Source: Adineta ricciae (Eukaryota; Rotifera; Eurotatoria; Adinetida; Adinetidae). Taken from it: a DNA stretch of 64,000 bases. Shown here piece after piece: positions 63,086 through 64,000 of the stretch. Each line of letters opens with the position of its first letter. Positions within the stretch are counted from its first letter, which is position 1. The translations under genes and the position numbers were made by a program. Below the pieces are notes generated by a model. It saw nothing but the letters and a program-made list of their open reading frames with translations. It was not told where the DNA came from and did no database searches. The stretch is taken from NCBI GenBank assembly GCA_905250025.1, contig CAJNOJ010000170.1, positions 62,001 to 126,000 of the forward strand, written 5' to 3'.

Positions 63086-64000
63086 TTAAAAATGATCGTT
63101 ACATGAACATTTTCCATCTGCAAAATGGTGAATGCGATTAGCGTCGCGTACAATGATCTGACAATTACGAATTTGACTAATCAGTTTGATTGCATTATCT
63201 ATACAAATAATCAATAAAAAATAAAATATTTTCGTCGTATTGCATTCGAAATCAATTATTGCCAAGTGACTTACGACAATCATCACAAATACGAAGATTC
63301 TTCACTATTTGGATTCGTGATGGAATTGGCTGTTGAATGAAATTATATGCTAATGCCAATCTTTCACTGTGACTATTAAGAATCGATTCAACAGTTTCAT
63401 CAGGCATCATTGGACGTGTTATCCAGCTTGAATCAAACTTATGACCATGTTCAATGAGTTCACTTTCGATTCGACCAAGTTCATCATAAATTTCTTTCGT
63501 CCGTGGATGAGATCGATCTTGAGCACGAAATTGCTAAGAATTAAATAAAATATTCGAATGAAATTAACATAGAAACATCTTATCTACCACAAGTTCATCG
63601 TTGATCTCAGTCCAAGATAATCCCATTTGTTTTTTTGCACCAGATCGACTCAGATTCCATCTCATTTGTGATGCTTCATCTAAGTTTCCCGATGCCGCTA
63701 ATACATTAGTGAGAAGAACTGAAGCTGATATCAAATCTTTGTCCAAAGCATGAAATAACTTCTGTATTCGTTGAGTTATTTGTCGCGCAAGAGAAACATC
63801 GTTTTGATTACGAACACCCGATAACAATGACACTAAAAAATGAAATAAACTCGTTATACAATATATAAAAATCTTTCTCAATCTTGTATTAATAGCGTTT
63901 CGAGGATATGTGAAATACTTTCCATGGAAAGAAAAATGGATTCAGATAGGTTTAATGGCAAAACTTACTATACATAGGTAGACAAGGAGGTTGATGACGT
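63086..64000 (-). CDS. DYW-type pentatricopeptide-repeat protein (plant-like RNA-editing factor), C-terminal part
   Basis: Runs off the right edge. Minus-strand exons: about 63968-64000 (ends PPCLPMY), 63588-63832, 63275-63533, 63086-63198, all in phase. The first shows the PPR E region ([54 protein letters not shown]), the rest a whole DYW domain: [33 protein letters not shown] (HxE zinc ligand and catalytic Glu), [15 protein letters not shown] joined across an intron to NAIKLIS (CxxCH zinc site), and the end [19 protein letters not shown] followed by NDHF. Plant DYW proteins bind organelle RNA through upstream PPRs and deaminate C to U. The final triplet is DHF, not DYW. All zinc and catalytic residues I can see are kept, so an active deaminase is plausible. 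Confidence 0.92.

Follow-up and report, generated by a model that had tools for sequence, protein, structure and literature searches.

DYW proteins in rotifers have already been published (PMC4202320, PMC5295000), and the literature on rotifer DYW genes goes back to 2014 or earlier (PMC4202320). According to PMC4202320, such proteins occur in Adineta ricciae and Philodina roseola as well as in Naegleria, Acrasis and Physarum; its tree places the Naegleria proteins with the rotifer clade at a posterior probability of 0.93, and transfer from early land plants is favoured there as the origin of the rotifer proteins. The same paper reports 12 DYW genes in Acrasis, with two confirmed mitochondrial C-to-U sites out of six predicted. 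For Adineta vaga, PMC4498783 describes stop codons in a few nuclear genes, for which cDNA gave no evidence of RNA editing. Neither a report of mitochondrial C-to-U editing in a rotifer nor a genome-wide count of rotifer DYW genes was among the matches listed from the open-licence literature, and no test of whether rotifer DYW genes edit was seen in the open-licence literature searched.

The genes described here can be likened, through the published descriptions, to the DYW proteins of rotifers, Naegleria, Acrasis and Physarum as members of the same family. Additional here are the scale of the family (82 loci, against the 12 DYW genes of Acrasis), introns shared among its members, a separate plant-like copy, and a last P1 repeat with Gly, Ala or Val as residue 5, a position occupied in the plant code by Asn, Ser or Thr. 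With land-plant PLS-class factors (OTP86, 9kfx) the family shares the PLS order, the P2-L2-S2 arrangement, the E1 and E2 motifs, the PG box, the gating region and the HxE/CxxC and CSC motifs, and a further possible likeness to land-plant factors is an Arg-rich presequence, seen here in paralogues. Unlike those factors, the family ends in DHF or DYF, and the gene under study has six introns in its assembled part, whereas plant DYW genes are mostly intronless. Arabidopsis DYW1 (7w86) is similar in its DYW deaminase domain (1.3e-25) but is not known to have repeats of its own, which the proteins here do carry, while the bacterial DYW-clade toxin deaminases differ in that the architecture here is that of PPR proteins and not of prokaryotic toxins.

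A PPR-E-DYW gene at the edge of the window

The window analysed is a stretch of 64,000 nucleotides, C170:62001-126000, where C170 denotes contig CAJNOJ010000170.1 of a 130.5 Mb assembly in 1033 contigs. A PLS-type PPR-E-DYW gene has its 3' part at 63086..64000 on the minus strand, with the stop codon at 63086-63088. The last coding exon (63089..63198, minus strand, as are all the following features of the gene) encodes the end of the deaminase fold and the DYW motif, and is separated by an intron of 76 bp (63199..63274) from the exon that encodes the gating region and the catalytic segment (63275..63533). An intron of 54 bp (63534..63587), which lies at domain column 12 and for which an alternative donor would give 57 bp, leads to an exon (63588..63832) that covers E1, E2 and the greater part of the PG box (GLSWTEIND). 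Beyond an intron of 141 bp (63833..63973) lies the end of an exon with the S2 repeat (63974..64000, continuing to 64062 on the window scale), and further exons are found outside the window at C170:126113-126306, 126363-126444 and 126499-126851. The three introns within the window are all GT-AG, in agreement with the short, host-like introns noted in a preliminary description of this DNA.

Pfam analysis matched the gene to DYW_deaminase (4.9e-33, covering positions 1-92 of 93) and PPR (4.7e-26), E-values that exclude a chance match. The E motif (25.9 bits, E 1.2e-5) and the E+ motif (22.8 bits, E 7.6e-5) matched significantly but scored just below their curated cut-offs of 27.3 and 24, respectively. 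The preliminary description had reported E and DYW regions with intact HxE, CxxCH and CSC motifs and a C-terminal DHF in place of DYW, and this was upheld in each respect: HxE is present as HSE and CxxCH as CDDCH, CSC and the PG box are both present, and the C-terminal triplet is DHF. The PG-box stretch aligned with the matching stretch of OTP86 and 9kfx, and comparison of the DYW domain with solved structures gave 2.8e-37 for a synthetic PPR-DYW protein and 1.3e-32 for OTP86, in addition to the DYW1 match given above. Its domains and residues make the gene a member of the PPR-E-DYW family, with the literal DYW triplet absent and the code only partly kept.

It had been proposed that the gene be extended rightwards to count its PPR motifs; this yielded seven repeats up to an assembly gap, in the order S1-P1-L1-S1-P2-L2-S2 (types assigned by eye), followed by E1, E2 and DYW. 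The gene reaches C170:126851 (64851 on the window scale), where a single N at C170:126852 (64852 on the window scale), 852 bases past the window, interrupts the assembly in the middle of a repeat, so the start of the gene is missing. A neighbouring paralogue at C170:128007-130266 on the plus strand (dN 0.058 and dS 0.91 relative to the gene under study) matched 9kfx at 1.1e-104 over query residues 96-570 (475 residues), and aligns with it through the P, L and S repeats, P2-L2-S2, E1, E2 and DYW; the repeat count for the gene under study was read from this alignment. A contig break had been named in advance as an observation that would count against the gene. The break itself is real, since the gene is cut on its 5' side, but full-length paralogues exist.

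DYW genes across the genome

Searching the genome with the Pfam DYW model returned 127 matches, all above the cut-off, compared with none in 14 control genomes, of which those named are prokaryotes. These matches were grouped into 82 DYW loci on 48 contigs. A full domain with neither stop nor frameshift is present at 52 loci. At another 17 the alignment contains a stop or frameshift, and the remaining 13 loci cover part of the domain, some being cut by contig ends or by the ends of the stretches examined. Clustering of the 52 full domains by nucleotide identity gave 35 groups at a threshold of 97% and 25 at 90%. Several contigs carry more than one locus, with seven on C170 (one of them a duplicated tail at an assembly join), five on C461 and four each on C311 and C322.

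The intron at domain column 12 is shared by 51 of the 52 full domains and an intron at column 99 by 48. HxE and both CxxC cysteines are present in all 52, and CxxCH and CSC in 51 each. A lysine that matches OTP86 K915 in the present alignment is found in 44 domains; this residue of OTP86 is linked to regulation in a structure paper (PMC7611903). The C-terminal triplet is DHF in 25 full domains, DYF in 20 and another sequence in seven, and none ends in DYW. The literal D-Y-W triplet is a naming feature, and the adjacent zinc residues are retained.

Selection was assessed by the Nei-Gojobori method on 221 pairs with dS of 0.05-1.5. The median dN/dS was 0.150 overall. For the 128 pairs below dS 1, divided into three classes, the class medians were 0.109-0.116, and pairs with dS of 1.0-1.5 had a higher median of 0.226. 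The DYW family is under purifying selection in dozens of copies.

A few loci depart from the main family. A related copy on contigs C9 and C15 is degenerate and has lost the histidine of HxE. C131:198396-200231 encodes a PPR protein with a highly divergent, shortened DYW domain (Pfam 3.7e-13), in which HTE and CNECH are retained and the gating region is largely lost. The DYW gene at C45:186423-188740 is plant-like, and its DYW domain has neither of the two introns typical of the main family; as its N-terminal 131 residues had no Pfam match, the start of this gene was read as PPR by eye. In addition, PPR_2 matches were observed on nine contigs that have no DYW match (C113, C191, C104, C48, C94, C83, C11, C306 and C59), and these are probably other PPR proteins of the same animal.

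PPR code and N-terminal presequences

Bases are read by PPR proteins through residue 5 and the last residue of P and S repeats, but not of L repeats (PMC10482289). Code residues were counted in 15 genes, which remained from 21 gene models (17 + 4) when three that were too short and three that were misaligned or partial had been dropped; the models come from a simple splicing script, and some of their junctions are misplaced. In the last P1 repeat, 12 of these genes have Gly as residue 5, two have Val and one has Ala, so that Asn, Ser or Thr occurs in none of the 15, whereas the synthetic plant-type protein 9kfx has Asn or Thr at P1 residue 5. At its last residue, however, this P1 repeat has Asn or Asp in 14 of 15 genes. 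Repeats nearer the C-terminus are largely canonical: Asn, Ser or Thr stands at residue 5 in 11 of 15 for the last S1 (before P2), in 14 of 15 for P2 and in 10 of 13 for S2, and the last residue of the last S1 is Asn or Asp in 13 of 15. For the earlier S1, the corresponding figures are 6 of 14 at residue 5 and 4 of 15 at the last residue. Upstream P1 repeats, read by eye, have mostly Gly at residue 5, with the exceptions of Asn and Thr (C529), Ser (C155) and Asp (C170:201396). Judged by these residues, the code still seems legible in the C-terminal repeats, with the exception of residue 5 in the last P1. Prediction of an RNA target by the PPR code, which the preliminary description had suggested, was abandoned because only about three repeats have usable residues.

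An N-terminal anchor could be read at ten loci in the fetched long stretches. When the longest possible start of 15-70 residues is taken, and by composition alone with no control set, nine of the ten have a presequence of 19-35 residues with 2-6 Arg plus Lys and 0-2 acidic residues, and the tenth (C288) has a 65-residue stretch with 10 basic and three acidic residues. Five Arg are present in the presequence at six of the ten readable loci. Two odd family members begin with MFSRHLFLLRRFSSSIVRWHQ and MLARFLIRRTYRSNPN. The presequences of the paralogues look mitochondrial in composition; candidates for the mitochondrial targeting peptide that was to be looked for are the Arg-rich presequences in paralogues, and the start of the gene under study itself is unassembled.

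Candidate edited sites in the mitochondrial genome

The mitochondrial genome lies at C55:464485-478188 and uses the invertebrate mitochondrial code; C makes up 6.5% of its coding strand. It directly follows a single N at C55:464484, which joins it to a nuclear scaffold beside a 660-codon open frame, presumably a multicopper oxidase.

Seven mitochondrial proteins were each aligned to one PDB chain, and non-synonymous changes that restore the reference residue were counted. C-to-T changes did so in 11 of 446 cases (2.5%). The other transitions reached 5.4-6.5%, with G-to-A restoring the residue in 53 of 943 cases, T-to-C in 113 of 1727 and A-to-G in 61 of 1137. Across these seven proteins there is thus no excess of codons repairable by C-to-T, which are rarer than those repairable by other transitions.

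A second comparison used a panel of alphaproteobacterial homologues (coxA from 80 of 80 loci, cytochrome b from 19 of 22 and cox2 from 20 of 25) from which fragments, copies with in-frame TGA and weak second matches were left out. The record for Candidatus Paracaedibacter symbiosus contained cytochrome b and cox2 matches with in-frame TGA, which are probably host mitochondrial DNA. Columns were taken as near-universal when filled to at least 70%, 95% identical and with a residue common to a mammalian chain. Of 342 such positions the animal departs from the panel at 48. A C-to-T change would repair three of these and a different single substitution 28, and the other 17 need two or more changes.

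The three positions repairable by C-to-T are striking candidate C-to-U sites. In cox1, residue 365 is CTT (Leu) against Phe in all 80 bacterial homologues, and residue 368 is GCT (Ala) against Val in 76 of the 80; in cox2, residue 197 is CAT (His) against Tyr in all 20. The cytidines singled out for comparison with RNA lie at C55:467334 and 467344 in cox1, 476427 in cox2, and 471813, 471045 and 472032 in cob. The two cox1 residues are the sole differences from the bovine chain over residues 348-375. The cox1 candidate at C55:467344 has G at -1, a context rarely accepted by plant editing factors. A fourth candidate is cob residue 273, which is not among the near-universal positions of the bacterial panel; here TCT (Ser) stands where the mammalian chain has Phe.

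ARAGORN called 16 tRNAs, one on the other strand and several overlapping and doubtful, and A.C accounts for two of 12 plus-strand mismatches in their acceptor stems, which is no excess. A tRNA search of the mitochondrial DNA with the bacterial code found none, and Rfam gave nothing at gathering scores on this stretch. The mitochondrial DNA was rejected as a general C-to-U substrate, as there is no enrichment in the repair count (11/446), at the near-universal positions (3/48) or in tRNA acceptor stems (2/12). It shows no sign of massive recoding as judged from its codons, and a handful of candidate places are left.

A proposed role in mitochondrial RNA editing

We consider it fairly likely, with a probability of about 0.6, that the gene is a nuclear member of a large, expanded and probably laterally acquired family and acts as a mitochondrial C-to-U editor with few recoding targets. 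An N-terminal presequence would import the protein into mitochondria, where the PPR tract would bind a transcript over a short segment on the 5' side of a cytidine, and the DYW domain would deaminate that cytidine to uridine. Recognition of the RNA would depend mainly on the C-terminal S1, P2 and S2 repeats, in which the code positions are largely canonical, with the last P1 lacking a residue-5 code. Recoding targets are probably few, with candidates in cox1, cox2 and perhaps cob, and many members of the family would have to act on silent or non-coding sites, redundantly on the same sites, or elsewhere. By analogy, the Acrasis precedent supports mitochondrial editing, with modest expectations. 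Also in favour are the structural matches, the conserved active site, the low dN/dS, the presequences and the three candidate sites in cox1 and cox2. Points against it are the scarcity of C-to-T-repairable codons and of A.C mismatches in tRNA acceptor stems, the G at -1 of one cox1 site, the low C content of the mitochondrial coding strand, the higher dN/dS at dS of 1.0-1.5, the lysine matching OTP86 K915 being kept in some and not all domains, and residue 5 of the last P1. The surplus of intact putative editors over visible targets, together with the altered repeat, is the part that this proposal leaves unexplained.

A bolder form of the proposal, to which we give less credence than to its rejection, is that of an animal with plant-type mitochondrial C-to-U editing in which dozens of DYW editors are active, the PPR code is changed and one repeat of the C-terminal triplet is not read through residue 5. 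If true, this would amount to organellar C-to-U editing of the plant kind in an animal and to a natural experiment in relaxed PPR specificity. The genome offers a dense, catalytically intact family, the matching mitochondrial DNA and named cytidines, which reduces the question to one comparison of RNA and DNA reads. Should the proteins edit, they would show a laterally acquired, sequence-specific deaminase expanding and drifting in specificity in an animal; should they not, something else preserves dozens of perfect active sites.

An unlikely alternative is a role for these mitochondrial PPR proteins in the stability, processing or translation of transcripts, in which case the deaminase fold would be kept for folding or for the binding of partners, with deamination at no site or almost none. 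This would agree with the small number of plausible recoding sites relative to 52 intact domains and with the loss of the residue-5 code in the last P1. Among so many copies, however, the loss of catalytic residues would be expected in some, whereas HxE and both CxxC cysteines are kept in every full domain and dN/dS is approximately 0.11 at dS below 1.

Next in likelihood, and itself improbable, is a family redirected to cytidines outside the mitochondrial transcripts, for example in transposon, viral or other foreign RNA. A large, young and partly clustered family with a relaxed P1 code, alongside mitochondrial DNA that has no excess of target-like sites, is what such a role would lead one to expect, but the presequences look mitochondrial wherever a start is readable, and dN/dS in the DYW domain is low. 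We place very little weight on a decaying, laterally acquired family with no present function: lesions as aligned at 17 of the 82 loci and the 13 partial loci point that way, but the 52 lesion-free full domains and their fixed active-site residues argue against it, and the low dN/dS already contradicts it.

Origin and genomic context

Across the single N at C170:126852 that ends the gene lies a cobalamin adenosyltransferase gene (Pfam 1.3e-47) on the same strand, broken at the same base. Seven single Ns were checked in the fetched stretches, and three of them (C170:52597, C170:130406 and C288:111063) have exactly 221 identical bases on either side, as from unmerged contig ends laid side by side. 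The other four, 126852 included, have no such flanking repeat. The duplication at C170:130406 repeats the tail of a DYW gene, and this repeated tail is what was counted as the locus at C170:130387. Among 40 candidates scored for a near-identical second copy of the gene under study, none qualified, the best having 77% DNA identity.

A plant or protist contaminant, or a chimaeric assembly, could be suspected from the end of the gene at a single-N join and from the faulty joins elsewhere, but is very unlikely and the least probable explanation of all, because the window holds animal genes (rhodopsin-family receptor, CDC20/Fizzy WD40, Piwi and PDZ) and the 82 DYW loci are spread over 48 contigs, with introns at the same two places in nearly all full domains. 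The claim of a plant-type DYW factor in an animal nuclear genome, made in the preliminary description, is borne out by the same observations.

Lateral transfer of the DYW genes is plausible. In an unrooted tree of 56 domains, the C45 domain (C45:186339) groups with three plant-type PDB sequences (97/86), although C45 and the plant-type rows are long branches and their joining may be false; the protein from C131:198396-200231 has a very long branch in the same tree. The outgroup consists of three plant-type sequences only, so that the DYW genes may stem from one transfer or from several, and the main family may or may not be a single clade. Searches for relatives with tblastn in phages and plasmids, and scans of viral contigs and of prokaryotic contigs with a pair of peptide patterns for each set, found none at the sensitivity of each search.

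Six frames of the window were scanned with Pfam and five matched, to CDC20/Fizzy WD40, a rhodopsin-family receptor, PDZ, Piwi and Gpr1/Fun34/YaaH; there was no match for the sixth, nor for one frame upstream of C170:48861, and with the N-terminal part of the C45 gene this makes three proteins without a match among ten scanned. The nearest Pfam-matched neighbour on the other side of the DYW gene is the gene for a Gpr1/Fun34/YaaH family membrane protein (60645..61502, minus strand, Pfam 1.4e-46), which was possibly also acquired laterally. At 51255-53429 the window contains two adjoining open frames, the second with a Piwi domain (4.7e-34), corresponding to an Argonaute/Piwi-type gene.
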